From: Meiothermus sp.
Lineage (GTDB): Bacteria > Deinococcota > Deinococci > Deinococcales > Thermaceae
Direction of reading: 5' to 3'
Assembly: GCA_026004095.1 (NCBI GenBank)
Contig: BPIL01000003.1
Location: forward strand, 62,001 to 126,000
DNA: 64,000 nt
Positions 6,752 to 40,088 of this stretch are shown here, piece by piece. The notes below the pieces were generated by a model, which did no database searches, was not told the origin of the DNA, and was given only the letters and a program-made list of their open reading frames with translations. Numbering within the stretch: the first letter of the stretch is position 1; each line of letters starts with the position of its first letter. A program made the translations under genes and the position numbers.

Positions 6752-7297
6752 ATGACCTCCAAGCAGCGCGACGATTTGCTCAGGTTGCTCAAAGACCGCT
6801 TTGAGCAGCACCCCCACCGCCACCCGGGGCTGCGCTGGGCCGACCTCGAGGCCCGCCTCCTGGCCCAGCCCGATAAGCTGGCCTCGCTTCTGGAGATGGA
6901 AAACACCGGCGGCGAGCCGGATGTGGTAGGCCACGACCCGAAGACCGGGGCTTTTATCTTTTTCGACTGCGCCCCCGAAAGCCCTAAAGGCCGCCGTAGC
7001 CTCTGCTACGACCGGGAAGCCCTTCTAGCCCGCAAGCACCACAGGCCTGCGGGCTCAGCCCTGGAGATGGCTGCAGCCATGGGCATCGAGCTTTTGACCG
7101 AGGAGCAGTACCAGGCCCTACAGCAACTGGGCCCGTTTGATACCAAGACCTCGAGCTGGCTCAAAACCCCCGAGGCCATCCGCCGGCTGGGCGGGGCCAT
7201 CTTTGGCGACCGGCGCTACGGCCGCGTGTTCATATACCACAACGGGGCCGATTCCTACTACGCGGCTCGAGGGTTTCGTGGCTGCTTGAGGGTTTGA
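6752..7297 (+). CDS. DUF4256 family protein in the dnaK operon
   Basis: A soluble 181-residue protein with the DUF4256 hallmarks throughout: a GLRW motif, the ETGGEPDVV-like MENTGGEPDVVG, DCAPESPKGRRSLCYD, LTEEQYQALQQLGPFDTKTSSW and a C-terminal YHNGADSYYAARGFRGCLRV. No enzymatic function is established for the family. It starts 7 bases after the dnaJ stop, so it is probably the last gene of the heat-shock operon. In T. thermophilus this position is held by dafA and then clpB; neither is seen here. The IS630 element begins 33 bases after its stop. Its conserved polar residues suggest an enzyme, but I cannot assign a reaction. Confidence 0.8.
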   Translation: MTSKQRDDLLRLLKDRFEQHPHRHPGLRWADLEARLLAQPDKLASLLEMENTGGEPDVVGHDPKTGAFIFFDCAPESPKGRRSLCYDREALLARKHHRPAGSALEMAAAMGIELLTEEQYQALQQLGPFDTKTSSWLKTPEAIRRLGGAIFGDRRYGRVFIYHNGADSYYAARGFRGCLRV

Positions 7298-7353
7298 TCA
7301 TACGCATTTCGGTATCCTTCACCTCTGATATGAAATCCTTTTGATTCATTCCC

Positions 7354-7914
7354 CTAACATCCCCCCGGCCACCAGTGAAATAGGGTGTAGCTCTGGATAA
7401 GCGCGGGCTGGGTTTGTAGGTAAGCGCACCGGGCTTCCACCTTGGCCCACAGCTCCTCTTCATCCTGCACCTGCCCATTGGCCACGACCGCGTCAATGAG
7501 CCCCCAGGTTCGTTCTACCGGCTGCAACTCGGGCGAGTAGGGTGGCAGATAACACAGCCCCAGGCCCTTGGCTGGCTCCACCCGCCCCGAGGTGTGCCAG
7601 CCAGCCTGATCCAGCACCACCAGTACCAGCTTGCCCGCCCCCGCCCCCCGTAGCCGGGCAAAGGCCTCCAACACCAACTGGAACCCCTCCACCGAGACCG
7701 AGGGCAGCAGCCAGTACTCGCTTTCCCCCGTACCCGGTCTTATGAAGGCGTACACATACAGCCAGCGATAGCGGGGCCGCTCCTGCGCTAGCGGCGTCCT
7801 CCCTCGCAAGGCCCATACCCGTCGGCGGATGGGCTTCAGCCCTATTCGGTGCTCATCAAAGCCCCACACCTCCAACTCCAGTTCAGGAAAGAGCAACCTG
7901 AACAGGAAAACCAT
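7354..7914 (-). CDS. IS630 transposase, ORF B (DDE catalytic half), copy 1
   Basis: A 186-residue frame carrying the catalytic core: first Asp in WGFDEHRIGL, second Asp in VLVVLDQAGWH, and the Glu in LQPVERTWG, in the DDE order of the IS630/Tc1 superfamily. It overlaps the stop of ORF A (stop and ATG share bases) and lies in the -1 frame, so the active transposase is expected to be an ORF A-ORF B fusion made by ribosomal slippage. Translation from its own ATG by re-initiation is also possible. The residues needed for catalysis are present, so the copy may be active. Confidence 0.88.
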   Translation of the reverse strand: MVFLFRLLFPELELEVWGFDEHRIGLKPIRRRVWALRGRTPLAQERPRYRWLYVYAFIRPGTGESEYWLLPSVSVEGFQLVLEAFARLRGAGAGKLVLVVLDQAGWHTSGRVEPAKGLGLCYLPPYSPELQPVERTWGLIDAVVANGQVQDEEELWAKVEARCAYLQTQPALIQSYTLFHWWPGGC

Positions 7915-8426
7915 CAGAAAGAGCTTTTTTTGAAAGCCTCCTGCCGCTTCGCATCCGCCTCCCGGTGGCGCGGCCGGGGGCGCAGCGGGGCCAGGCCCAG
8001 GCGACGCATCCAGTACCAGGCCCGCCGCCCATCCACCGGACGTCCCAGCCTTTCAGCCAGCCACTCCGCAGCGTTGCGAATGCTCCAAAGCCCGTCCCTG
8101 GGATGGGGCTGGAGGAGGGCCTGGCGGAAGCCCTCCTGGAGTTCGGGCGGTACGAGGGGGGCCCGGCCTTTGTTCTCGTGCCGCAGATTCTTCATGGGCA
8201 GGCCCTGATTGTAGCGGTGGATTACCTGACGCACCCAGCGATCGGTATAGCCCAGATTCCTGGCTACCTCGGGGATGCTCTGACCCCTGGCCAGCAGCCA
8301 GAGAGCGTGCCAGCGGGCGCGTTCGGTGTGGTCTTGGGACTCCCGGTAGAGGGCGTGGAGGTTATCCGGATGGTGTCGCAGTTGGAGTTCCAACCGGGGG
8401 CGGCGCTGATGTTGGGCCAGTTGCAT
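7914..8426 (-). CDS. IS630 transposase, ORF A (DNA-binding half), copy 1
   Basis: A 170-residue frame with a helix-turn-helix DNA-binding region: the segment IPEVARNLGYTDRWVRQVIHRYNQ (about residues 50-73) is typical of the winged-helix arm of IS630 transposases. It ends in KRQEAFKKSSF at a run of seven A on the coding strand followed by G, directly before the stop, where a -1 slip would join it to ORF B. Its ATG is 36 bases inside the element end. Confidence 0.85.
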   Translation of the reverse strand: MQLAQHQRRPRLELQLRHHPDNLHALYRESQDHTERARWHALWLLARGQSIPEVARNLGYTDRWVRQVIHRYNQGLPMKNLRHENKGRAPLVPPELQEGFRQALLQPHPRDGLWSIRNAAEWLAERLGRPVDGRRAWYWMRRLGLAPLRPRPRHREADAKRQEAFKKSSF

Positions 8427-17997: not shown

Positions 17998-18510
17998 ATG
18001 CAACTGGCCCAACATCAGCGCCGCCCCCGGTTGGAACTCCAACTGCGACACCATCCGGATAACCTCCACGCCCTCTACCGGGAGTCCCAAGACCACACCG
18101 AACGCGCCCGCTGGCACGCTCTCTGGCTGCTGGCCAGGGGTCAGAGCATCCCCGAGGTAGCCAGGAATCTGGGCTATACCGATCGCTGGGTGCGTCAGGT
18201 AATCCACCGCTACAATCAGGGCCTGCCCATGAAGAATCTGCGGCACGAGAACAAAGGCCGGGCCCCCCTCGTACCGCCCGAACTCCAGGAGGGCTTCCGC
18301 CAGGCCCTCCTCCAGCCCCATCCCAGGGACGGGCTTTGGAGCATTCGCAACGCTGCGGAGTGGCTGGCTGAAAGGCTGGGACGTCCGGTGGATGGGCGGC
18401 GGGCCTGGTACTGGATGCGTCGCCTGGGCCTGGCCCCGCTGCGCCCCCGGCCGCGCCACCGGGAGGCGGATGCGAAGCGGCAGGAGGCTTTCAAAAAAAG
18501 CTCTTTCTGA
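17998..18510 (+). CDS. IS630 transposase, ORF A (DNA-binding half), copy 2
   Basis: Identical in sequence to the ORF A of copy 1: 170 residues with the helix-turn-helix segment around residues 50-73. The frame ends at TTC AAA AAA AGC TCT TTC TGA; the seven-A run at about 18493-18499 is the likely slip site for making the fused transposase. Reading through in the -1 frame would join KRQEAFKK to KLFLMVFLF of ORF B. Confidence 0.85.
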   Translation: MQLAQHQRRPRLELQLRHHPDNLHALYRESQDHTERARWHALWLLARGQSIPEVARNLGYTDRWVRQVIHRYNQGLPMKNLRHENKGRAPLVPPELQEGFRQALLQPHPRDGLWSIRNAAEWLAERLGRPVDGRRAWYWMRRLGLAPLRPRPRHREADAKRQEAFKKSSF

Positions 18511-19070
18511 TGGTTTTCCTGTTCAGGTTGCTCTTTCCTGAACTGGAGTTGGAGGTGTGGGGCTTTGATGAGCACCGAATAGGGCTGAAGCCCATCCGCC
18601 GACGGGTATGGGCCTTGCGAGGGAGGACGCCGCTAGCGCAGGAGCGGCCCCGCTATCGCTGGCTGTATGTGTACGCCTTCATAAGACCGGGTACGGGGGA
18701 AAGCGAGTACTGGCTGCTGCCCTCGGTCTCGGTGGAGGGGTTCCAGTTGGTGTTGGAGGCCTTTGCCCGGCTACGGGGGGCGGGGGCGGGCAAGCTGGTA
18801 CTGGTGGTGCTGGATCAGGCTGGCTGGCACACCTCGGGGCGGGTGGAGCCAGCCAAGGGCCTGGGGCTGTGTTATCTGCCACCCTACTCGCCCGAGTTGC
18901 AGCCGGTAGAACGAACCTGGGGGCTCATTGACGCGGTCGTGGCCAATGGGCAGGTGCAGGATGAAGAGGAGCTGTGGGCCAAGGTGGAAGCCCGGTGCGC
19001 TTACCTACAAACCCAGCCCGCGCTTATCCAGAGCTACACCCTATTTCACTGGTGGCCGGGGGGATGTTAG
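18510..19070 (+). CDS. IS630 transposase, ORF B (DDE catalytic half), copy 2
   Basis: Identical to ORF B of copy 1: 186 residues with the catalytic Asp in WGFDEHRIG, Asp in LDQAGWH and Glu in VERTWG. It lies in the -1 frame relative to ORF A, with stop and start overlapping. The catalytic residues are complete. Confidence 0.88.
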   Translation: MVFLFRLLFPELELEVWGFDEHRIGLKPIRRRVWALRGRTPLAQERPRYRWLYVYAFIRPGTGESEYWLLPSVSVEGFQLVLEAFARLRGAGAGKLVLVVLDQAGWHTSGRVEPAKGLGLCYLPPYSPELQPVERTWGLIDAVVANGQVQDEEELWAKVEARCAYLQTQPALIQSYTLFHWWPGGC

Positions 19071-19136
19071 GGGAATGAATCAAAAGGATTTCATATGAGA
19101 AGCCAGAAGAAGTAAAATGGTCACAAGGAAACAAAA

Positions 19137-28599: not shown

Positions 28600-30417
28600 T
28601 CAGAACTCCTCATCCCACTCCACGATGGTCTCGCTGGTCAGGCCGGGGTGCGGCTTGGTGCTGGCGGCGGCCCCCGCTGCACTGCCCGCAGCGGTCTGGG
28701 CTAAGGTGGAGCTGCGGCTGCGCTGTACTGGGGTGCGCTGGTTTTGCAACAAACCGAACTGGGTTGCGATGCCCCGCAGGCCAATGGTGGCGAAGATGAT
28801 CACCAAGAACACCGTCAGGCCCCAGAACAACTGGGCCACCAGGTTTTGCTGAATGGACAGGTTGGTGAGAACGCTCAGGAAGGGCAGCCGACCGTAGCGC
28901 GGGTCGGACAGGATGGAGCCGATGTAGGATAGGCCTTCCATCATGGCTGGCAGCAGCAGGAAGAAAAAGGCCAGGCCCAGGAAGCGCCAGTAGACGTTGC
29001 GCCCGCCGAAGGTCAGCTTAAGCAGGTAAAGCGGGAAGAAGGCCAGCAGTCCGGCCAGGATGAACAGAAAAGCCCGGGGGATGCCCAGGATGGTTTGCAG
29101 CAGCCAGATCTGCAGGCTATGGAAAGCCCCTAGGCTCCTGCCCTCCAGAACCAGGGCGTTTTCCAACAGCTCCCCCGAAAGCACCGTGAAGTCGCTGGTG
29201 CGCAGACCCACGGCGTTCTCGGCCAGGTCGAGCACCCGGTTGGTGCGTTGGGCCAGCTCGGGTCGCAGGGCCTCGATTAGGGGAGCGATGGCTGTTCTGT
29301 AGCGGGCGCTGACCTGGGCCAGGGTGCGGCGGGCGAGGTCGGTCTGCCCGTTTTCAACCTGGGCCTGGGCTTCCAGCAGGCGTCCGCGCACCTCCAGCAG
29401 GGCCCGTTTCCAGTCGTCAATGCTGTAAACGCCGGCCCCTGTCAGGCTGTCGGCCACACGCTCGAGCTGGCGGCTATCTTTGATCAGAAAGCGCAGATCC
29501 CCCAGCAATTGCTGGTAGGCATCCGGGGTAGGGGCCGCCTGGACGGCCGGGCGGGTTTGCACTGCAATGGCCGGGGCCGTTTCCCTGGGGGCCGGGGGGG
29601 TGCGGGGGGCCTCTAGGCGAACCCCCCCAGCGGCCGGGGGGGTTTGGGTGGTGGTGGTGGGGTTACTTCGCCGCTGGCTCTGGGGGCTCGAGGCCGCTCT
29701 TAGGAAGTTCTGAGCCTGGGTGACCAACCCCTGCACATCGCTTTTGAAACCGCCCAGGTTGCCGCTGGAGAGCTTGCCCAGGGCATCCACAAAGGCTTTG
29801 GCGCTGAGCCCACGGGCGCGGGGCGAGTCTTGCACGATCAGGTAGAGGGCATAGGCCCGGGTGGCCTCGAGGTAGGCCCGCACGGCACTGGTCTGGGCCT
29901 GGGCCCGCTGGAGGGCATTGGTGATACCCTGGGCATAGGTGCGCTCAAACAAACGACGCACCCCCTCCAGGTTGTTTGCGGCGGCCAGGGTTTGCACCTG
30001 GGCCTGGAGGCTGTTGGGCAGTCCGCTGGCCGAGAGCACTTTGGGCAGCAGGCGGTTGGCGTCGGCGCTGTTGCCCGCTGCGAGGGCGCTAAAGTAGTTG
30101 TCGTACAGGGCCTTGCCCAGGATGGCCTTAATGATCTGGATGCGGGCCTCGAGGTCGGCGCTGCTGCGGCGCGCCAGGGCCTGGCGGGCATCGGCCAGGG
30201 ATTGTTGTATGCCCTCACGCAGCACCGGGGGCAATTCACCGGCCCCTTTGCGGAAGTTGTCCTCGGCCTGGGCCAGGAGCTCGAGGGCCCGTGCGGGGTT
30301 GCTGTTTTGTAGCGTGCGCACCTGATCCAAGATGGGTGCGAGCTGGTCGTACAGGTTGAGGGCCGGAGTGGCCCAGGCCAGGCTAAATAGCGCGATTATC
30401 GCGAACCAACGCTTCAT
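28600..30417 (-). CDS. Unknown large membrane protein with periplasmic helical domain
   Basis: A 605-residue protein with a Sec-type signal (WFAIIALFSLAWATPA), a long helical, Ala/Leu/Gln-rich extracytoplasmic region (about 20-380) broken by a Thr/Pro-rich linker (SNPTTTTQTPPAAGGV), and four or so membrane helices near the C-terminus (LQIWLLQTILGIPRAFLFILAGLLAFFPLY and beyond), ending in a short Ser/Ala-rich cytosolic tail. I recognise no family. The second ATG (30417) is 8 bases from GGAGG and preferred over the one at 30423. It follows 12 bases after a roadblock-type gene, so the pair probably work together. Confidence 0.65.
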   Translation of the reverse strand: MKRWFAIIALFSLAWATPALNLYDQLAPILDQVRTLQNSNPARALELLAQAEDNFRKGAGELPPVLREGIQQSLADARQALARRSSADLEARIQIIKAILGKALYDNYFSALAAGNSADANRLLPKVLSASGLPNSLQAQVQTLAAANNLEGVRRLFERTYAQGITNALQRAQAQTSAVRAYLEATRAYALYLIVQDSPRARGLSAKAFVDALGKLSSGNLGGFKSDVQGLVTQAQNFLRAASSPQSQRRSNPTTTTQTPPAAGGVRLEAPRTPPAPRETAPAIAVQTRPAVQAAPTPDAYQQLLGDLRFLIKDSRQLERVADSLTGAGVYSIDDWKRALLEVRGRLLEAQAQVENGQTDLARRTLAQVSARYRTAIAPLIEALRPELAQRTNRVLDLAENAVGLRTSDFTVLSGELLENALVLEGRSLGAFHSLQIWLLQTILGIPRAFLFILAGLLAFFPLYLLKLTFGGRNVYWRFLGLAFFFLLLPAMMEGLSYIGSILSDPRYGRLPFLSVLTNLSIQQNLVAQLFWGLTVFLVIIFATIGLRGIATQFGLLQNQRTPVQRSRSSTLAQTAAGSAAGAAASTKPHPGLTSETIVEWDEEF

Positions 30418-30429
30418 GGTCATAACCTC

Positions 30430-31059
30430 CTATTGCTCGGCGCCCACCTGGAGGGCTTCGATCTTGCCCATTCGGTACAGCAGTTGCCCCAGATTGGCCT
30501 CGTTGCGCGTGAGCACAGCCAGGTAACCTTGCCCCAGGGGGCGCAGCACCAGCTGAGCCTCTCTGAACACAGTGTAAAACACCCGGTAACTCCCTTTACG
30601 GTCAAGTAACCGGTGCATGGTCGAAAGAAGCTCGACCAGACTCTCGCTGTAGGCTCCCAGGCGCAATTCTCGTCCGTAACTGGACTCCAGCACCACCGCC
30701 AGCACCCCTTCTTTGCGAGCCAGTTCCAGCACCAGGCGCTGGCGCTCAGACTCGCTTTGCAGATCTATGTACTCGGCCAGATCGGTGACCTCGAGGGTAG
30801 GAGCTGCCACTGGCTGGGGGCTGCGGGCTTGGGTTTTGAGCTGCTGAGCCAACTGCTTTAGCTCGGGCAGAAGCCCATTCATCGGCAGGATCTCTCTGAT
30901 TTCTCGCTGCAACGGCCCCTCGATCAGTTCGGCCCAGCGCTGCGGCTCCAGTGCCTCGGGCGACTGCCCCCCCAGCGCCCGTTTGAGCAGGCTGCTGGCT
31001 GCCAGGGGCGAGACCACCTGGGACAGGGCCTCGATGATTTTTTGTGCGGTTCTGTCCAA
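30430..31059 (-). CDS. Roadblock/LC7-like domain protein
   Basis: About 209 residues. The C-terminal part (about 115-205) has the roadblock pattern, beta-helix-beta: GVLAVVLESSYGRELRLGAYSESLVELLSTMHRLL then LVLRPLGQGYLAVLTRNEANLGQLLYRMGKI. The N-terminal half is helical. In bacteria such proteins regulate small GTPases of the MglA type that set cell polarity and gliding or pilus behaviour; no GTPase lies nearby. The frame opens at GTG 31071, but GGAGG lies inside that stretch and points to the TTG at 31059. It is encoded directly upstream of the large membrane protein. Confidence 0.6.
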   Translation of the reverse strand: MDRTAQKIIEALSQVVSPLAASSLLKRALGGQSPEALEPQRWAELIEGPLQREIREILPMNGLLPELKQLAQQLKTQARSPQPVAAPTLEVTDLAEYIDLQSESERQRLVLELARKEGVLAVVLESSYGRELRLGAYSESLVELLSTMHRLLDRKGSYRVFYTVFREAQLVLRPLGQGYLAVLTRNEANLGQLLYRMGKIEALQVGAEQ

Positions 31060-31192
31060 TTGTCCTCCCACGCTGGGTTCAAGCCGGAAAGTCCTAAGCC
31101 AGGCCCGGCCTGGGAATGATTATAGTGAAGGGCTTGCCAAAAACCGGGTCATCTTGTACCATACCCGTTGCCTGCTCGAACAGGCTCCCTGT

Positions 31193-31266
31193 TGGGGCAT
31201 CGTCTAACGGCAGGACTACGGATTCTGGCTCCGTCAATCGTGGTTCGAATCCACGTGCCCCAGCCA
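31193..31266 (+). tRNA. tRNA-Gln (anticodon CTG)
   Basis: A 74-base cloverleaf with encoded CCA: acceptor TGGGGCA/TGCCCCA, D-loop CTAACGGCAGG, anticodon stem ACGGA/TCCGT around TTCTGGC, and T-arm GTGGTTCGAATCCAC. It decodes CAG. The U1-A72 pair is typical of tRNA-Gln. Confidence 0.95.
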
Positions 31267-31332
31267 GATTTATCTCGAAGGGCTGCACCCCGACCTAAGT
31301 GCAGGGCAGCACCTCCGGGATAAACCCAATCC

Positions 31333-31407
31333 GGCCCCATCGACTAGCGGTTAGGTCACCGCCCTTTCAAGGCGGCGGCAGGGGTTCGAATCCCCTTGGG
31401 GTCACCA
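31333..31407 (+). tRNA. tRNA-Glu (anticodon TTC)
   Basis: A 75-base cloverleaf with encoded CCA: acceptor GGCCCCA/TGGGGTC, D-loop CTAGCGGTTAGG, anticodon stem CCGCC/GGCGG around CTTTCAA, and T-arm GGGGTTCGAATCCCC. It follows tRNA-Gln by 66 bases and is probably co-transcribed. Confidence 0.95.
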
Positions 31408-31455
31408 ACAGCCCTCGGTTCGCGCCGGGGGTTTTAGCTTTGTGAGAGCCCACCC

Positions 31456-32559
31456 ATGAACCCGGTAACCAACGCCCAACGTTTACGCCTGACCTGGGGC
31501 AGCGCCCTGGGGCTGTTCATGACCGGGGCCATTGGGGCGGCGGTGGGGGCGGCCATTCCCCAGTGGCAGGCCGGGTTTGGCGTGGGCCCCGAGCTGGCCT
31601 GGTACTTCAACCTGTTTTTTGTGGGGGCCTTGCTGGGCATTTTCCTGGGCAGCCGGATGCGCCGGCGCCACCCCTGGCTGGCCCTGGCCCTGCTGGTTGA
31701 GGGGCTGGGCCTGCTATTAATGGCCCTGACCCCCCAGATGAGCGGGGTCTTTGGGGCGGCTTTGCTGCTGGGCCTGGGGGTGGCGGTGGTCAACTTCCAC
31801 TGCAACGCCCTGCCCCTCGAGCTCTACCCCAAGGGCCAACTGGTCGTGCTCTACCGCGTCAACACAGCCTTTGGGGTGGGGGCAGTGCTGGCCCCCTTGT
31901 TGCTGGTGGGGCTGGGCTGGCGGGTGGGCTACGCGGTGCTGGCGCTGGTGGCCCTGGCGGCGGCGGGCCTGTTGTGGAAAGCCCCCGCGGCGCGGGCACG
32001 TCCCCAGGCCGAAGCAACCCGCACACCTTCGGGTTTGCTGCCCTTTGTGCTGCTGGCAGCGGTCTCGTATGTGGCGGTGGAGCTGGTGGTCTCGAGCTTC
32101 TCCGGCCTCTACCTGCGCCACCTGGGCTACGACCCCCGCTGGGTGGGGGTGCTGCTCTCGCTGTACTGGGTGAGCCTGACCCTGGGCCGCTGGCTCCTGG
32201 CCGACTTCGTAGCCGCCAACCCCCTGGCCCGGCTGGTGGGGCTGCACCTGGCGGCGCTGCTGGTGGTGGGGTGCTACTTTGTGCCCCCTTTGGCCTGGGT
32301 TTTTCCGCTGGTGGGGTTCTGGGTGGCCCCCACCTTCCCTACCCTTTATGCCTTCACCGAGAAGCACATCGGCTACGGTGGGCTGGCCTTTTTGTTTTAT
32401 GCGGCGGCGGTGGGCAGCAACCTGATCCCGGCGGGATTTGCCCTGCTGCCCAGGGAAACGCTAGCCACCGGTATGCTTTTGGTGGTGGCCTGGATGGCCG
32501 GCATGACCTACCTGCTCTGGAGGAAAAGTGAAGCTGAGGGCCCTGCTCTTCGATCTTGA
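31456..32559 (+). CDS. Major facilitator superfamily transporter
   Basis: A 367-residue protein with about eleven to twelve hydrophobic helices and the MFS loop motif after helix 2 in degenerate form (GSRMRRRHPWLALA). It resembles sugar-type or general efflux MFS proteins (VVNFHCNALPLELYPKG, FPTLYAFTEKHIG near helix 9-10). The substrate is not predictable. Its end overlaps the HAD gene by 32 bases, so they form an operon. Confidence 0.75.
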   Translation: MNPVTNAQRLRLTWGSALGLFMTGAIGAAVGAAIPQWQAGFGVGPELAWYFNLFFVGALLGIFLGSRMRRRHPWLALALLVEGLGLLLMALTPQMSGVFGAALLLGLGVAVVNFHCNALPLELYPKGQLVVLYRVNTAFGVGAVLAPLLLVGLGWRVGYAVLALVALAAAGLLWKAPAARARPQAEATRTPSGLLPFVLLAAVSYVAVELVVSSFSGLYLRHLGYDPRWVGVLLSLYWVSLTLGRWLLADFVAANPLARLVGLHLAALLVVGCYFVPPLAWVFPLVGFWVAPTFPTLYAFTEKHIGYGGLAFLFYAAAVGSNLIPAGFALLPRETLATGMLLVVAWMAGMTYLLWRKSEAEGPALRS

Positions 32560-33178
32560 CGGCACCCTGGCCGACACCGACCGCCTGCACGAGCAGGCCT
32601 GGCTCGAGGGCCTAGCCCGCTACGGCATCCAGGGCGATCACCACTTCTACCAGACCCAGATCAGCGGCGGCCTCAACCCCGAGATTGTAGCGCGCCTCTT
32701 GCCCCAGCTTTCCCAGGCCCAGGGTGCGGCCTTCCTCGAGCAAAAAGAGGCCCGCTTCCGCGAGCTGGCCTCCGAGGTGCAACCCCTGCCCGGCCTAAAG
32801 GCGCTGTGGGACTGGGCCCAAAGCCAGGGTTTGCGCCAGGCTCTGGTGAGCAACGCCCCCAGGGAGAACGCCCACTACCTGCTAAAGCGGCTGGGGCTAA
32901 TGTTCGACCCCATCGTCCTGTCCGAAGACCTGCCCGCCGGCAAGCCCGACCCGCTGCCCTACCAAACGGCCCTGCAGCACCTAAACCTCGCCCCCCAGGA
33001 GGCCCTGGCCTTCGAGGACTCCCCCTCCGGGGTGCGCTCGGCGGTGGGGGCCGGCATCCCCACCGTGGCCCTCACCACCGGCCACCCACCCGAGGCCCTG
33101 GCCCAGGCGGGGGCTTTTTTGTGCATCCCCGACTACACCGACCCGCGCCTGTGGGACTGGCTGCGGGCGCTGGGCTAA
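32528..33178 (+). CDS. HAD-family phosphatase, beta-phosphoglucomutase-like
   Basis: A 216-residue HAD hydrolase. Motif I LLFDLDGTLADTDRLH gives the nucleophile Asp and acid/base Asp, the cap domain follows, motif II is ALVSNAP, and motifs III/IV are GKPDPLPYQTAL and LAFEDSPSGVRSAVGAG. This subclass dephosphorylates sugar phosphates or isomerises beta-glucose-1-phosphate. Translation starts at GTG 32528 inside the MFS gene. Confidence 0.85.
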   Translation: MKLRALLFDLDGTLADTDRLHEQAWLEGLARYGIQGDHHFYQTQISGGLNPEIVARLLPQLSQAQGAAFLEQKEARFRELASEVQPLPGLKALWDWAQSQGLRQALVSNAPRENAHYLLKRLGLMFDPIVLSEDLPAGKPDPLPYQTALQHLNLAPQEALAFEDSPSGVRSAVGAGIPTVALTTGHPPEALAQAGAFLCIPDYTDPRLWDWLRALG

Positions 33179-33254
33179 GCCCCCTACCGCCGATTTTTTC
33201 TCGACCTGGGGCCCCCGCGGGAAGCGCAAACAGGCGTGGCTTCCCGTGGGGTAT

Positions 33255-33710
33255 CTAGTAGACCCAGGGAATCAGCTTTTTGACCCGCTGGCGGTAGGCG
33301 CTGTACTCGGGGAAGCGCTCTTGAAGCCAGGTTTCCTCGAGGCTGGCCTTGCGGTCGAGCCAGACAAACAGCAGCCCGCACAACAGAAGCGTCCAGAGGT
33401 TCAGGTGGGCCAGGCTGCTGCCCAGCGCCCACAGCAGCACCCCGCAGTAGATGGGATGCCGCACCACCCGGTAGAGCCCCTGCTGCACCAGGTAGCCCCC
33501 CGGCCTGGGTTTGGGCAGAGCAGTCAGGTTGCGGCCCAGTTGCCAGGCCGCCAGCAGCAGCACCCCCAGCCCCACCCAGGCCAGCCCCCGCCCCAGCCCC
33601 CCCAGCCAGGGCGGGCTAAAGGAAGGCGTAACCCACAAAGCCAGCACCAGCAGGCCCAGCAGGGCAAACTGCCCCACCACATACCCCTCGCCCCGCTCGC
33701 CCAGGCGCAT
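33255..33710 (-). CDS. Isoprenylcysteine carboxyl methyltransferase-like membrane protein
   Basis: A 151-residue protein with about four membrane helices and the ICMT/PEMT C-terminal motif: LVQQGLYRVVRHPIYCGVLLWALG, then LDRKASLEETWLQERFPEYSAYRQRVKKLIPW. These residues bind S-adenosylmethionine at the membrane face. The methyl acceptor in bacteria is usually unknown; quinone, lipid or protein are all possible. It is convergent with the HAD gene and stands alone. Confidence 0.8.
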   Translation of the reverse strand: MRLGERGEGYVVGQFALLGLLVLALWVTPSFSPPWLGGLGRGLAWVGLGVLLLAAWQLGRNLTALPKPRPGGYLVQQGLYRVVRHPIYCGVLLWALGSSLAHLNLWTLLLCGLLFVWLDRKASLEETWLQERFPEYSAYRQRVKKLIPWVY

Positions 33711-33918
33711 GGCTTCAGGATACAGGGGTTGGGGTGCATTTGGGGCTTGTGAAGGCGGGAAAATGGGATAAAATCTGACTCCAAAGTAGCCGGAACCTAT
33801 AAACCTAGGCCGAAAGACGAACCCTGGATACCTACCTGTACCAAGCTAGAAAAGGAGGGATATTTGAATGAAAGAAGCCTACATCAGGAAGCAGATAAAC
33901 TTGCGGTATAGTTACTAG

Positions 33919-35755
33919 TTGTGCCACTTCCATCGGAGTTAAACGTCAATGAGTTATACACCTCGCTCACTTTTTAGGCTTCTTGAAGACATTGACGCTC
34001 ATCGCATATTACTCCCGCACATTCAACGTCCTTTTGTGTGGGAGAGAGAACAAATGGGCAAGCTGTTCGACAGCCTAATGCGTGAATATCCAATACAGAC
34101 TTTTCTGTTTTGGCGCACAAAAGAGGAAATACGCGCTCGACGCTTCATGCCAGTGATTGATTTCGACGCTGATTTGTCTACGCTTTACGACATGAATCGC
34201 TCTGCGGCGGGTATCGAAAAGGTTTTTGTACTTGATGGACAACAACGCCTACAAACGCTGCACGCGATTTTTCGTGGTGGAATACACGATGATTCAAACG
34301 CAATCGAAGAAGCATATTTCGACATCACGGCGGGTGATGTAGAAGTTGATAACGGCGACGTTTTACACAAGTTGATATTCAGTGCTCAGCCACTAGAGTT
34401 GCCGTTTTTCCGTGTCCGCGACCTAACAGAAAAGTATGCGAATGGCAATCCGCTGAACATTGCGGACGAGATAAACGATTTACTTGAAGACAAACTTCAG
34501 GAAGAAACCGAGAAGCGAAGGTTACGCGAGCGGCGTGTAAGGGCTAACCTGCAACAACTTCACTCAATCTTGAATCATGATAAGCATTTTTGGGTTGATG
34601 AACTGGACGGTGTTGCAAAACAATACCCATACCGCCGAATCCTTGAGATTTTCGTCCGCGTCAATTCGGGCGGGACAAAACTTACAGCCGGCGATTTGAT
34701 GTTCGCGGCGATGAAAGAAGGCTGGGATGACATTGAAGAACGCGTTGAGCAAGTTGTAAACCTTCTTAACGGCGGGAAACTCGGTATTGACAGCGATTTT
34801 GTTCTTAAATGTCTCCTGCTCGCTCATGGTGAAGGTGCTGAAATACAGAAAGAGAAATTCTATGGCGCGCGTGGTGAAACGCTCATACAGCATATTGAGC
34901 AAACGTGGGATAGAGCTGAAAAAGCCTTTCAGCAGTTACGCGATTTTATCGTACACGATATACGCATGTTTTCTGACAAGCTGGTTCGTAGTTACAACGC
35001 CCTGATACCTGTTTTCGACTTCCTTTTTCACAACCCTCAACCGAATGAAGCGAATCGCTTACTTATGGCGGCTTATTATCACAAAGCGCAACTGTTCAAC
35101 TGGTATAGAAGTTCCACCGACTCAATTTTGAACACCTTGCATTCTGTCGTAGGCAAGGATAATGGTGGTGCTTTTCCCTTGAGCGAGATAAAGAAATACT
35201 TTGGTATGTCTCACGGCTATTCTGTGGAATTGCAGGAGTCGCACTTGTCGGAGAACCGTCTGCGGGCAATAATTTTGAACATTGTCTATTGTGACCGTTG
35301 GGGCAACTCGCCATTTGATGTGGCATATAAAGGCAACGAGCCGCACATAGACCACATCTACCCGCAATACATGCTCAGAAATCGTTTAGGATATGGAAGC
35401 ACAGAGATAAACGACATAGGCAACTTGCGTTTTGTAGGCGCAACAGACAACATTCGCAAGCGAGCCGAACTTCCCGAATCGTATTTCAATCGCCTAAAAC
35501 AACAAGGCATCCCGATTGATAAACACTTGCTTGTTTCTGAATATGCCGACAATCCGCTATTACTGAAATTCGATGCAGTTACCTTTGATGCATTTCGGCA
35601 GAAACGAAGGGAAGAAATATGGAAATCGGCAAAGCGAGTCGTAGACCCTGAGATTCTGGAGCAGGGTAACCCCAGTTGATCAAAAGGGGCGGCATAACAA
35701 CGGGTTGCAGGCGACGCCGCTCTGCTTCGCTACGTGCCGCGCTTGAACCTCACTG
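33919..35755 (+). mobile_element. Solitary integron-type gene cassette with defence-like gene
   Basis: The AT-richer 1,837-bp segment is bounded by GTTGTGC on both sides (33918-33924 and 35755-35761), as if recombination took place between G and TTGTGC. It contains one gene, starting 30 bases inside the left boundary and ending 12 bases before an attC-like palindrome. This is the layout of an integron gene cassette inserted as a single unit. No integron integrase is in the window, so the cassette would have been delivered in trans. The interpretation is inferred from structure. Confidence 0.6.
33949..35679 (+). CDS. DUF262 and HNH-type (GmrSD-like) protein, probable anti-phage nuclease
   Basis: A 576-residue protein. 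The N-terminal DUF262 domain begins with LPHIQRPFVWEREQMGKLFDSLMREYPIQTFLFW and has the core motif VLDGQQRLQTLHAIF near residues 93-107, a ParB/sulfiredoxin-like nucleotide site. The C-terminus has EPHIDHIYPQ near 463-472 with IGNLRF and N-x-R downstream, like the DUF1524 HNH nuclease. A DUF262 plus DUF1524 pair is the make-up of GmrSD-type restriction enzymes, which cut modified phage DNA; that function here is inferred. Composition is far more AT-rich than the chromosome. It is the only gene of the putative cassette. No methylase or other partner is adjacent. Confidence 0.8.
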   Translation: MSYTPRSLFRLLEDIDAHRILLPHIQRPFVWEREQMGKLFDSLMREYPIQTFLFWRTKEEIRARRFMPVIDFDADLSTLYDMNRSAAGIEKVFVLDGQQRLQTLHAIFRGGIHDDSNAIEEAYFDITAGDVEVDNGDVLHKLIFSAQPLELPFFRVRDLTEKYANGNPLNIADEINDLLEDKLQEETEKRRLRERRVRANLQQLHSILNHDKHFWVDELDGVAKQYPYRRILEIFVRVNSGGTKLTAGDLMFAAMKEGWDDIEERVEQVVNLLNGGKLGIDSDFVLKCLLLAHGEGAEIQKEKFYGARGETLIQHIEQTWDRAEKAFQQLRDFIVHDIRMFSDKLVRSYNALIPVFDFLFHNPQPNEANRLLMAAYYHKAQLFNWYRSSTDSILNTLHSVVGKDNGGAFPLSEIKKYFGMSHGYSVELQESHLSENRLRAIILNIVYCDRWGNSPFDVAYKGNEPHIDHIYPQYMLRNRLGYGSTEINDIGNLRFVGATDNIRKRAELPESYFNRLKQQGIPIDKHLLVSEYADNPLLLKFDAVTFDAFRQKRREEIWKSAKRVVDPEILEQGNPS

Positions 35756-35761
35756 TTGTGC
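35692..35761 (+). repeat. attC-like recombination site
   Basis: A 70-base imperfect palindrome. The outer arms GCATAAC (35692-35698) and GTTGTGC (35755-35761) pair with one G-T wobble. The inner arms GGTTGCAGGCG (35703-35713) and GCGCTTGAACC (35739-35749) pair with one unpaired extra G in the left arm, the extrahelical feature of attC sites. A variable GC-rich loop lies between. Size and arm spacing fit the 57-141 base attC range; the outer arms deviate slightly from RYYYAAC/GTTRRRY. Confidence 0.65.
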
Positions 35762-35883
35762 TGAACTGCGAAGAAGCATTGCATTAGCACAGTGAGGGAA
35801 ATTACCCCTGCCCTCGAGTCCACTCCACTCCAGCCAGAGTGCCCTAGGCTCAGGTAAAGATGGGCAAAGGTTGCAATCCCAGT

Positions 35884-36537
35884 TCAGTTGCGCCGCAGCA
35901 CCTCGGCATCGGCGGGCCGTTTGCGCAGGGTCTGGGGGGTTAGGTTGGCCCGGCGGAAGTTGGTGAGATTAAGGTCGGCCAGCACCTTGTTGCTGCTGTC
36001 GCGCAGGGTGATGGAGAGGGGGCGGGGGTCGGACTTGAGAACCAGAATTTCCATGCTGGCAAAGCCCAGCGAGGCGTCCTTGGGGGCGCCGCCAATGCGC
36101 CAGGCCGGGCCGGCGGGGGTGTTTTGCTCGCCCAGAAGCCGCAGCGTGACCCGCTGGGTGAGCTCCTCGAAGTCGCCCAGGTCGGTCAGGTTGAAGCCCA
36201 GGCCTTCGATGCGGGCTTTGGCGCGGGGCTGGATGATGAGCTGGTTGGTCAGGAACAGGTAGTTCCAGACTTCCCTATCCGAGATCACCACGAAGTTGCC
36301 CTCGAGGGCGGCGGGTTTTCTGAACTCGACCCGGGCGAGCTGCTCCTTGCCCGGAATCACCTGGAGCCGGAAATCGGCCTCCTGGGTGCTGCCGTCGGGT
36401 AGCTGCACCTTGCCCGTGACGGTGGCCTCCCAGGGCGAACGTTCCAGGTTGGCCTGCACCTGGCGGGTAATTTCGGCGATGCTCTGGGCCGTAGCCAGCC
36501 CAAGGGATAGGAAGGCGATTGCCAGTAGTTTTTTCAT
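35884..36537 (-). CDS. LolA-like outer-membrane lipoprotein-sorting protein
   Basis: A 217-residue exported protein with a signal peptide (KKLLAIAFLSLGLATAQ) and the half-barrel pattern of the LolA/LppX family: WEATVTGKVQLPDGSTQEADFRLQVIPGKEQLARVEFRKPAALEGNFVVISDREVWNYLFLTNQ. In Thermaceae such proteins are thought to escort lipoproteins or lipids across the periplasm. The start overlaps the end of the upstream barrel-like gene by 4 bases, so the two are co-translated. It lies next to the cassette but has normal composition. Confidence 0.7.
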   Translation of the reverse strand: MKKLLAIAFLSLGLATAQSIAEITRQVQANLERSPWEATVTGKVQLPDGSTQEADFRLQVIPGKEQLARVEFRKPAALEGNFVVISDREVWNYLFLTNQLIIQPRAKARIEGLGFNLTDLGDFEELTQRVTLRLLGEQNTPAGPAWRIGGAPKDASLGFASMEILVLKSDPRPLSITLRDSSNKVLADLNLTNFRRANLTPQTLRKRPADAEVLRRN

Positions 36538-37382
36538 TCACTGCCTCCAAAACTGAGCCGGTAGCGCAACCACAGCGAAAAACTGCCCTCGTAGCTTGCG
36601 TCGGCGCGGAAGCCGTAGGCCTCCACTCCCAGGGTAGCAGCCCAGGGGTAGGCCACGGTTAGGCGCAGCTTAAGAGTGTTGAGCTGCTCCTCGTCTAAAG
36701 GCGTGCTTAGGGCCGCTTCCAGCCGGTTGAGCTGCCCGGCCCGCAGGGTGGCCTCGAGCAGCGTCCCAGCTTCGTCCAGCTCGCCCCGCCAGCCCAGGAG
36801 GCCGTACAGGCGCGAGTCGTCCACCCCCAGCCCAAAGGTGTAGGTTTTTTCCTGCCGCAGGGCATAGCTCAGCTCCCCCGAACCGCTAGCGGTACCTGCC
36901 AGGCTGTTTTTGAAGCCCAGTTGCAGGCCCAGGGTTTGCCGGGGCTCGAGGCGGTAGCGTCCGCCGAGCCCCAGCTTCAACCCGCCTTCGGCCTCGTCGC
37001 CCACCCACAGGCTCGAGCGCAGGGTGTTGCTGTACAGGGCTTCTAGGCTGGCGGCCACCGGGCCCAGGACGGCGCCGGCCCCGGCCTGCAAGCCCCAGCC
37101 GGCAAAGCCCAGGCTAAAGCCTGCGCCGTAGCTCAGCCGGCCCAGGGCGCTCAGCTCCAGCGCGCCGTTCAACCCCAGGCCCAGCGCATCGCGCTGCAAC
37201 CGTGCGCGTAGCTCCAGCTCGCCCAGCGGGAGGGTGGCCTCGAGGGTGGGGGTCAGGTGGTCGGGCGACAGGCGGCCAAAAAGCCCAAAGGTGAGGGACT
37301 GCCCAAAGCCGAGGGCCGCAAGCTGAAAACAGAAGGCAAGTACAACAAAGCGCACAGCGTGAGGGTATCGCAGAATCTTCAT
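36534..37382 (-). CDS. Putative outer-membrane beta-barrel protein
   Basis: About 282 residues with a signal peptide (VRFVVLAFCFQLAALGFGQS) followed by repeated amphipathic beta-strands rich in Gly, Leu and Tyr (LSYGAGFSLGFAGWGLQAGAGAVLG, LGLQLGFKNSLAG, SFSLWLRYRLSF) and a terminal aromatic strand, the look of an outer-membrane barrel. No specific family is recognised. The frame opens further upstream at 37457 but the ATG at 37382, directly behind GTGAGG, gives a sensible signal peptide; 37391 is an alternative. It is coupled to the LolA-like gene. Confidence 0.55.
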   Translation of the reverse strand: MKILRYPHAVRFVVLAFCFQLAALGFGQSLTFGLFGRLSPDHLTPTLEATLPLGELELRARLQRDALGLGLNGALELSALGRLSYGAGFSLGFAGWGLQAGAGAVLGPVAASLEALYSNTLRSSLWVGDEAEGGLKLGLGGRYRLEPRQTLGLQLGFKNSLAGTASGSGELSYALRQEKTYTFGLGVDDSRLYGLLGWRGELDEAGTLLEATLRAGQLNRLEAALSTPLDEEQLNTLKLRLTVAYPWAATLGVEAYGFRADASYEGSFSLWLRYRLSFGGSE

Positions 37383-37496
37383 CCTCACCATGGTAGCTTC
37401 TGGGCCCCCAAATGGGGGTGGCGCCGGCTTCCTGGGTGGTGCGCGGGCATGTACCAACTTTCGGGATTGGCGTTCAAATGTCAGAATAGGTGCGCT

Positions 37497-38036
37497 ATGG
37501 CGAACCTCAAGAACCTACCGGTTGGGAAAAAAGCCCCTGAAATTGTCCACATGGTGATCGAAGTGCCGCGCGGCTCTTCCAACAAGTACGAGTACGACCC
37601 CGACCTCGAGGCCATCAAGCTCGACCGGGTGCTGCCTACCGCCCAGTTCTACCCCGGCGACTACGGCTTCATCCCCTCCACCCTGGCCGAGGACGGCGAC
37701 CCCCTGGATGGCATCATCCTCTCCACCTACCCCCTCTTGCCGGGCGTGGTGGTGGATGTGCGGATTGTGGGCATGGTGGATATGCAGGACGAAAAAGGCG
37801 GCGATGCCAAAATCATCGGGGTGGTGGCCGAAGACCCCCGCTGGGATCACATCCAGGATCTGAGCGACGTGCCCACCGCCTACAAACAGGAGATCCAGAA
37901 CTTCTTCGAGACCTACAAGGCCCTGGAAGCCCACAAGGGCAAGTGGGTCAAGGTGGCAGGCTGGAAAGACCGGGCCGGGGCCGTGGCCGAGGTGCAGGCC
38001 TGCATCGAACGCTTCAAGCAGACCAAGGCTCAATAA
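37497..38036 (+). CDS. ppa: Inorganic pyrophosphatase
   Basis: Cytosolic family I pyrophosphatase that hydrolyses PPi and drives biosynthesis forward. It has 179 residues, the family length. The active-site signature is [10 protein letters not shown] near residue 67, with the upstream [13 protein letters not shown] and [13 protein letters not shown] and the later [12 protein letters not shown], which supply metal and phosphate ligands. The frame is open 80 codons upstream, but [10 protein letters not shown] at 37497 matches the family N-terminus. Confidence 0.96.
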
Positions 38037-38128
38037 CAGGGCTTCGAAGAAAAAAACCAGCGTGGTCAAGCCCGGGTTTGCTTGACCGGTTTGCGCATTT
38101 GTGGTTATGTAATCAAGCGAGCTTGCTT

Positions 38129-38560
38129 ATGGCCTTGCAACAGCGAATAGAATCCTTGCTGAGAGCGCTGGGGGTGCCCGATCTGAATGTCGAAGTACCC
38201 TCTGTGGCCGATGAGGAGGGCTTTCTCGAGGCCCTCGAGGCGGCCATTACCAGCTTTGTAGAGGACGGCGAGGACGACCAAAGCCCCCTGGGCCTGATCG
38301 AGGCCGATCCTTCGGCCTACGACCTCTCCGACGAACCCGACCACGAGGAGTTACAGAATGCTGTGCGGGACTTCATGAATGCGGGGGATTCCCAGCTCAC
38401 CCTGATCACCCCCGAAAGCCCCATCCAGCCCGATGGCGGCGAGAACCCCAGCAAGTTCTGGGTGTTTCTCCTGCAGATGCCCTCGCTCTCTGAACACCGC
38501 TGGTGGGCCATTGTGGACAAAAACGGCCGCCACGACACCTACAACTACGGGGTCATCTAA
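38129..38560 (+). CDS. Unknown acidic protein, 143 residues
   Basis: A soluble, strongly acidic protein ([42 protein letters not shown]) with a more structured C-terminal half, [36 protein letters not shown]. It has no signal peptide and I recognise no family. The start ATG 38129 is chosen because the upstream extension overlaps ppa in another frame. It lies 92 bases after ppa, beyond a 7-bp hairpin (GTCAAGC/GCTTGAC, 38065-38086). Confidence 0.5.
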
Positions 38561-38595
38561 GTACCCTACCACTGATTTTTCTCATTCCGGGGCGC

Positions 38596-39591
38596 TTAGC
38601 CGCCAATCCCCACCATCACCCGCTCGCGCAGGGTGGGTAGGGTGTTGCCAAAGGCCGGTTTGCGGTCGGTGGCCAGCAGAATGGCGTCTACCAGGGCCTC
38701 GACAGGGTTCTCGGCCTCGAAGGCCCAGGCGATGTCCATCTCCAGGTCGGTCAGCAAACAGGGCCGGATTTTTTTGTCGGCGGTCAGGCGCAGGCGGGAG
38801 CACTTGGAGCAAAAAGGCTCGGTAACCGGGTTGATAAAGCCCACCGTACCCACCGCGCCGGGGATGCGGTAAACCCGCGCGGGGGCGGTGGGGTCGTGAT
38901 CCACGCGCTCGAGGGGGCCAAAGTGGGCCTCGATTCTGGCGCGGGTCTCGGCCCCGCTGATAAAGCGGGCGTGGTAGAGCTCGGGGTTGGAGTTGTCGAG
39001 GTGCATATACTCCAGGAAGCGCACCTCGAGGGGTTTGTCCAGCGAGAGCGAGGCCAGCGGGATTACCTCCTGTTCGTTCATGCCCCGGATCATCACCGCG
39101 TTGATTTTGACCGGGTGCATGCCCAGCTCCCAGGCGGTTTCGATGGCCTCCCAGACCTTCTCGACCTGCCCGCCCCGGGTCATGGTTCGGAAGACCTCGG
39201 GGGTCACCGCGTCCATCGAGAGGTTGATGCGTTTGAGCCCTGCGCTTAGAAGCTCCTTGGCCTTTCGCTTGAACAGGAGGCCGTTGGTGGTGATGGCGAT
39301 GTCGGGGATGCCCAGCTCGCTGGCTGCCGCGATCATCTGGGGTAGCTCTTTGCGCACCAGGGGCTCGCCGCCGGTAAAGCGCACCGACTCCAGACCTAGT
39401 AGCTGCATGGCCCGCAGGAAGTGGCGGGTGTCTTCAACCGAGAGGGTACCCGGGGGTTCCGACTGCTCCCAGCCCAGCGGATGGCAGTACAGGCAGTGCA
39501 GGTTGCAACGCGGCGTGACCGAGAGCCGCAGATCCTTGATGATGCGCCCGTATTGGTCAATGAGTTTCACGCTGGCTACCCCGTGTTGCAC
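38596..39591 (-). CDS. moaA: GTP 3',8-cyclase MoaA (molybdenum cofactor biosynthesis)
   Basis: Radical-SAM enzyme that with MoaC converts GTP to cyclic pyranopterin monophosphate. It has 331 residues. The N-terminal cluster motif is CNLHCLYC (Cys-x3-Cys-x2-Cys, residues ~29-36), the GGEP SAM motif is in RFTGGEPLVRK, and the C-terminal second cluster motif is CSKCSRLRLTADKKIRPCL. No other moa gene is adjacent. An ATG a few codons in is possible, but 39591 has a plausible leader. Confidence 0.95.
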   Translation of the reverse strand: MQHGVASVKLIDQYGRIIKDLRLSVTPRCNLHCLYCHPLGWEQSEPPGTLSVEDTRHFLRAMQLLGLESVRFTGGEPLVRKELPQMIAAASELGIPDIAITTNGLLFKRKAKELLSAGLKRINLSMDAVTPEVFRTMTRGGQVEKVWEAIETAWELGMHPVKINAVMIRGMNEQEVIPLASLSLDKPLEVRFLEYMHLDNSNPELYHARFISGAETRARIEAHFGPLERVDHDPTAPARVYRIPGAVGTVGFINPVTEPFCSKCSRLRLTADKKIRPCLLTDLEMDIAWAFEAENPVEALVDAILLATDRKPAFGNTLPTLRERVMVGIGG

Positions 39592-39680
39592 ATTCTAACA
39601 ACACGGTGAGTCCACGGCGCAAGGCCGGTTACAAACTCCCTGTTACATTCCCTCGAGCCCCGTCAAACTAAACTAAAGCC

Positions 39681-40088
39681 ATGAAGACGGTGGTGTTGTT
39701 CGATGGCGTCTGCAATCTATGCCACCGCACCGTGCAGTTCATTCTCCGGCACGACAAGGCCCAGCGCTTTGTATTTGCCTCGCAGCAGTCCGAGATTGGG
39801 CAGCAACTGCTTCGCCGATACGGTGTGCCTACCGAGACGGCCCTGGCCGATAGCGTGGTGGTCATCGAGGGGGCGCGGGTATGGCTGGAGTCGGACGCCG
39901 CCCTGTACATCCTCTACCGGCTGGGGGGGGTGTGGCGCGCGGCGGCTGTGCTGCGTTTCCTGCCCAAGCGATGGCGGGACTGGGCCTACCGGCTGGTAGC
40001 CAAAAACCGCTACCGCCTTTTTGGGCGGCTCGAGCGCTGTATGATGCCAACCCCCGAACTCAAGAAGCGCTTTTTAGATGCTTTGTAA
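39681..40088 (+). CDS. DCC family thiol-disulfide oxidoreductase (DUF393)
   Basis: A 135-residue protein with the family-defining start VVLFDGVCNLCHRTVQFILRHD, in which D-G-x-C-x2-C forms a thioredoxin-like redox centre. The end carries RWRDWAYRLVAKNRYRLFGR, also typical. Cellular partners are not known. It lies 51 bases before the patatin gene on the same strand. Confidence 0.85.
   Translation: MKTVVLFDGVCNLCHRTVQFILRHDKAQRFVFASQQSEIGQQLLRRYGVPTETALADSVVVIEGARVWLESDAALYILYRLGGVWRAAAVLRFLPKRWRDWAYRLVAKNRYRLFGRLERCMMPTPELKKRFLDAL

Follow-up and report, generated by a model that had tools for sequence, protein, structure and literature searches.

A DUF262 gene cassette beside an apparent integrase remnant in Meiothermus: probably a chromosomal integron whose integrase has been lost

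Introduction

The locus described here raises the question of how a DUF262/HNH gene framed by two GTTGTGC heptamers came to lie in a Meiothermus chromosome, and what kind of system its surroundings belong to. In the 64-kb stretch of DNA that was analysed (the window), the heptamers at 33918 and 35755, the gene that they flank and the 70-base palindrome behind it (35692-35761) are all located where a first-pass annotation had placed them. That annotation described a solitary integron-style cassette carrying a GmrSD-like gene, with an attC-like site, no integrase nearby and, in Thermaceae, no integron system known to be established. The list of integron-bearing phyla given in a 2021 review does not include Deinococcota (PMC8618304). 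A search at the level of titles, in which subscription journals were thinly covered, found no report of integrons in Meiothermus, Thermaceae, Thermus or Deinococcota/Deinococcus-Thermus. The reading developed below from the sequence is that the window very probably contains a chromosomal integron whose integrase has been lost and which retains one cassette.

Results

The element is bordered on the left by a host gene for a PEMT/ICMT-like methyltransferase (33255..33710, minus strand; Pfam PEMT, E 8.3e-12), which forms the same border in a related genome, G006, and on the right by a host LolA-like gene (35884..36537, minus strand; Pfam LolA_like) that has a match in all 50 family genomes. Between them lies the integrated gene cassette (33919..35755, plus strand), which starts with its own TTGTGC, ends with the G of the R' core of attC and is delimited by the cores, the covariance match and the attI motif. 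Both the cargo gene (33949..35679, ATG start) and the attC site (35692..35761) are on the plus strand, the latter at a distance of 1774 bp from the crossover. The GC content of 500-base windows wholly within the element is 0.44-0.48, compared with 0.58-0.71 away from it (30000-40000). An inverted repeat at 35748-35797 (22 nt, 73%) straddles the right cassette junction. As GTTGTGC occurs in the window at chance frequency (six copies versus 9.1 by chance) and the hairpin is unremarkable, neither of the two alone counts as proof, and both heptamer frequency and hairpin stability were dropped as evidence for attC.

For the attC site, a calibrated covariance model (R1) was built from 18 sites of IMG/VR viral contigs that were picked without the window. 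Its seeds came from a generic R''...R' pattern that yielded 20 loci in IMG/VR, of which four were used, contributing six sites (L073), four sites (L079), seven of eight sites (L087) and a single site (L076; the other three loci are repeat arrays), while the remaining 16 were left out as by eye non-attC or unneeded. In the training alignment, 92.7% of cells are paired under the named structure and nine pairs changed on both sides. At a limit of E 10, R1 matches the window once, at 35692-35761 on the plus strand (32.5 bits, E 2.7e-7), and at that limit the same site is its sole match in the window's genome (84.5% complete; E 1.2e-5), so that the proposed attC-like site was borne out and the suggested genome-wide look for further copies of the palindrome returned only this one. 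The cores GCATAAC (R'') and GTTGTGC (R') are complementary at six of seven positions with one T-G wobble, AAC and GTT being present, and the L''/L' arms with one bulged G were scored together with the cores in the 32.5-bit match. The fold itself has stability z-scores of -0.31 and 0.01 (-1.21 and -0.66 with simple shuffles) and stem probabilities of 0.56-0.63, and is weaker than those of seven other family attC sites that were folded (z -2.8 to -4.9); a few folds in the training set of 18 are no better, for instance that of L087h with z -0.05 and -0.69. The identity of the attC site rests on sequence and structure jointly, and not on fold stability. Nothing in Rfam matched over 33700-36000 at E 1.

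At the opposite end of the cassette, the left core is part of an attI site, which extends as far as the crossover at G|TTGTGC (33897..33918, plus strand; crossover 33918|33919). The attI sites of the family, as seen in 15 other sites, have a common left half ending in ...TACTAG or nearly so, and are divergent after the crossover. The consensus used for collecting these sites was read by eye, and the window was in view at the time, which involves some circularity; the resulting cores represent 15 distinct places out of 27 loci, one duplicate having been dropped. A motif made from them, with the window excluded, has its best position in the 64 kb, both strands considered, at 33897-33920, with 24.7 bits; the next are the start of the attC (17.1 bits) and a position with 10.1 bits. 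Because 14 of the 15 training sites outscore it (range 16.3-41.6 bits, in-sample), the window attI is regarded as a real yet somewhat divergent member. Among four genomes, exact matches to a pattern derived from the window attI were restricted to G000 and G017, and matches with three mismatches were equally common in the control. The 14 loci with an attC match include ten with an attI core, nine of them in the same orientation and one (L160) in the opposite, and four without a core by the scan.

The region leading to the crossover may also contain a leader (33850..33918, plus strand) composed of the Shine-Dalgarno-like AAAAGGAGGG (33850-33859) and a 16-codon ORF (33868-33918) whose TAG stop lies at the attI crossover. 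Since this arrangement of start codon, SD-like motif and TAG at the crossover is present in just seven of the 16 attI sites compared, that of the window among them, the predicted ORF is only suggestive as an aid to cassette expression; it is antisense to intI, which could hold the frame open for other reasons. A candidate Pc, a promoter-like TTGTGA-16-TAAAAT directed at the cassette (33747..33774, plus strand), matches 9/12, and the count of promoter-like sites is at chance level (three found versus 2.2 expected from shuffles).

The DNA behind the attI looks like what decay has left of the 5' end of an integron integrase gene, comprising approximately its first 40 codons on the minus strand (33751..33895, limits approximate). 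In a multiple alignment, the reverse complement of 33751-33918 continues from the attI/intI start as in relatives. When the left flank was compared with profiles lacking G006, the matches were not significant, with E 0.95 and 1.4 for 13 sequences and E 0.17 for six; a shuffled control beat the window with the 13-sequence profile (4.6 versus 3.2 bits) and did not do so with the six-sequence profile, and tblastn with five IntI proteins gave no match in this flank at E 0.01. With no significant direct match to intI, the remnant call is retained only through a better-preserved relic in G006 (contig C9, L125 9218-9421), which is recognized by attI+intI profiles free of G006 and the window (E 1e-9 and 4.6e-12) and lies immediately upstream of the methyltransferase orthologue, the same neighbour as in the window. 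The relic alone matches the window at 33924-33751 (E 3.9e-6), and a profile including it at 33915-33805 (E 1e-6; next match E 3.3); the match through the relic amounts to 22.9 bits, of which 7.6 bits are composition bias. Across the 40 loci that surround the two neighbour genes, an intI-remnant match at E 1 was obtained only in the window and in G006, the latter being a training member. With the left core assigned to attI and an apparent integrase remnant behind it, the earlier description of a solitary cassette with no integrase nearby needs to be revised.

In relatives, the same locus has different contents. In G006 another ORF, of 272 aa and with its own attC (38.3 bits), comes after the attI relic. 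Behind that cassette (L125 7670-8271, G006:C9) are a PemK-like toxin gene and a small partner gene, perhaps a second cassette. The same cassette as in the window, with both cores, is present in the sister genome G017. Conservation of the gene in all relatives, which had been named as an observation against a cassette, was not seen: the cargo gene is near-identical in G017 only, and is split there (L037) at window position ~34075 by an insert ~865 bases long that has a 269-aa transposase-like frame. Of the relatives that lack the cargo gene at this place, G009 is the closest; there, ~33725-35871 is replaced by a short stretch, and R1 has no match at the locus. As the element is found in G006 and in the window and is absent from the closer G009, its absence there suggests a loss of the element. 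None of the relatives compared had the predicted empty site with a single GTTGTGC at the junction; the arithmetic of an excision of 33919-35755 is right, but the seamless chromosome expected from it lacks support, G009 being without the whole of ~33725-35871. In other species the interval beside the LolA-like gene holds different open frames, unrelated to those here (L019 in G010, L020 in G019 and L014 in G005), which makes it a variable spot. At L040 (G013:C3, 833-2137), three attC sites and small ORFs, one of them RibD_C-like, are located ~1.8 kb from the G013 LolA-like orthologue.

Integrons are not confined to this locus, as integrase genes, attI and attC sites occur elsewhere in the same genus and family, contrary to the initial view that no integron system was established in Thermaceae. 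Matches to TIGR02249 (IntI) above the curated cut-off were obtained in six of 50 family genomes (G004, with one stop; G008; G011, incomplete; G013; G018; G020) and in seven of 111 genomes of the phylum. Weak matches below the cut-off are present in all 50 genomes and in 14 of 14 controls, as expected for tyrosine recombinases, and none of the controls exceeded the cut-off. The IntI of G018 lies within a 3.27-Mb contig, scores 464.7 bits to TIGR02249 and matches IntI4 (2A3V) with E 4.9e-87, far better than XerA. At E 0.1, R1 has matches in 19 of 50 family genomes, several of these matches adjoining integrases; the 20 kb around the G013 integrase gave none. Used as a DNA query, the G004 attI/intI start found 27 places in 15 of 50 genomes and no match in the window's own genome. 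An insertion-like element with two copies in the window (7323-8226 and 18198-19096) is ~93% identical to L067 343-1208 beside the G008 integrase, and part of the ~7200-8300 region matches a transposase region of Thermus plasmids only (7/7 records).

Entry of cassettes into attI as circles would leave an R'' in attC that is complementary to the left-junction core and not to the neighbouring R'. This signature was found in nine of 12 other attI-linked cassettes, where R'' matches the left core at 7/7 positions and its own R' at only 4-6; two of the remaining three have 6/7, and one is a weak match with 2/7 (L159, probably no attC). In the window, R'' matches the left core and its own R' equally, at 6/7 each.

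The cargo gene encodes a 576-aa protein with a DUF262/GmrSD_N domain (E 4.5e-27, 95.9 bits, above the Pfam cut-off of 33.2) and an HNH-like HIDHIYP motif, and together with the covariance match this supports the original proposal of an integron gene cassette with attC and a GmrSD-like gene. The protein matches the PADLOC family HEC-05 (E 5.3e-68), itself a defence candidate only, and the solved DUF262 protein 7P9K, which we take to be BrxU (E 1.5e-26; residues 10-513 align, the HIDHIYP motif included). It resembles these single-chain GmrSD-like nucleases in the combination of DUF262 with an HNH-like C-terminal motif and differs in that its GmrSD_C match (14.1 bits) is under the Pfam cut-off of 23. 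The product, if made, is probably a nuclease-like defence protein. Integrons can carry phage-defence genes. Homologues were also found in one of 38 candidate stretches of genome contigs (from a Candidatus Solibacter MAG, with 71% over its best segment), in 373 plasmid records by protein (the best from Bradyrhizobium, 54-55%) and, distantly, in six phage records; none was confirmed in viral contigs.

Discussion

The order of features in the window, namely the methyltransferase gene, the putative intI remnant on the opposite strand, attI, the DUF262/HNH cassette, attC and the LolA-like gene, is readily accounted for by an integron that has lost its integrase. The cassette would have entered as a circle through recombination between attI and attC at G|TTGTGC, driven by an integrase, and the integrase gene may have decayed later, freezing the cassette in place. 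If the cargo is expressed, its promoter is probably in or near the intI remnant, with possible help from the leader ORF, and the function of its product would be in defence. Sequence comparisons point to this history at several places: the attC and attI sites, the apparent homology of the left flank to the G006 relic, the different cassette in G006, and the integrases and cassettes elsewhere in the family.

A wider interpretation, which appears doubtful, is that the family has a dispersed integron system in which each chromosome would carry several small attI platforms with a shortened intI, one or a few cassettes and, in some, a TAG leader ORF at the crossover; such docking sites would be filled by an integrase in trans or from rare donors, and the window would be one of them, with a defence cassette. 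It is unlikely, for the window itself, that the attI/attC pair is still usable and is served by the integrase of another replicon or strain. Decay has gone less far in attI and attC than in intI, and stop-free integrases are present in the genus, but these belong to a second sequence type (L065-L069), which disfavours service in trans, whereas the window attI belongs to the other type, and the integrases observed for that type are truncated or have stops; the window attC and attI also both score below most others.

Very unlikely is the insertion of a single cassette into a secondary, non-attI site of the chromosome by an integrase acting in trans. Such an event would be consistent with the single attC of the window's genome and with the result of the IntI search, proposed with the first-pass annotation, in which nothing exceeded the TIGR02249 cut-off in this genome (84% complete) or in G017 (99% complete). 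A random junction, however, would neither resemble attI nor carry intI homology, whereas the junction is the top attI match in the window and its flank is homologous to the attI/intI relic beside the same gene in G006. Finally, it is hardly credible that the palindrome is a plain terminator or a repeat arisen by chance, with the DUF262 gene having arrived otherwise, for despite the chance-level heptamer, the weak fold and the lack of an attC covariance match in the homologue regions of the distant Solibacter MAG and of two Bradyrhizobium plasmids, the single covariance match lies at the predicted place, no T-run terminator was found at the palindrome, and an attI at the opposite end means that two independent ends agree.

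The favoured reading, an integron that has lost its integrase, can be compared with known systems. With sedentary chromosomal integrons the locus shares a putative intI divergent from the array, an adjacent attI and a cassette attC in the expected orientation, as well as, in the relatives of the window, the R''/left-core signature; it differs in having a single cassette and what looks like a mere fragment of intI, and in a host lineage outside the phyla listed in the 2021 review. A CALIN, the attC cluster without integrase defined by IntegronFinder, would likewise have attC without a functional intI, but the default requires two attC sites (PMC9024848), whereas the window's genome has one, accompanied by attI and a probable intI remnant. 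In class 1 integrons, ORF-11, a short ORF with a Shine-Dalgarno motif across attI1, raises translation of the first cassette (PMC8876359). The short ORF of the window similarly reads across attI toward the first cassette behind an SD-like motif; it stops on a TAG inside attI, at the crossover, whereas the stop in attI1 usually comes from the cassette core.

Apparently, this is a known kind of system in a lineage without an earlier report, and it would extend integrons to a deep-branching thermophilic lineage. It would also provide a route by which foreign genes, including defence candidates, may be delivered into this lineage. The locus may illustrate how an integron dies, the integrase going first and the docking site and cassette last. 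As relatives have intact integrases and sites, attI x attC recombination in a thermophile would be directly testable.
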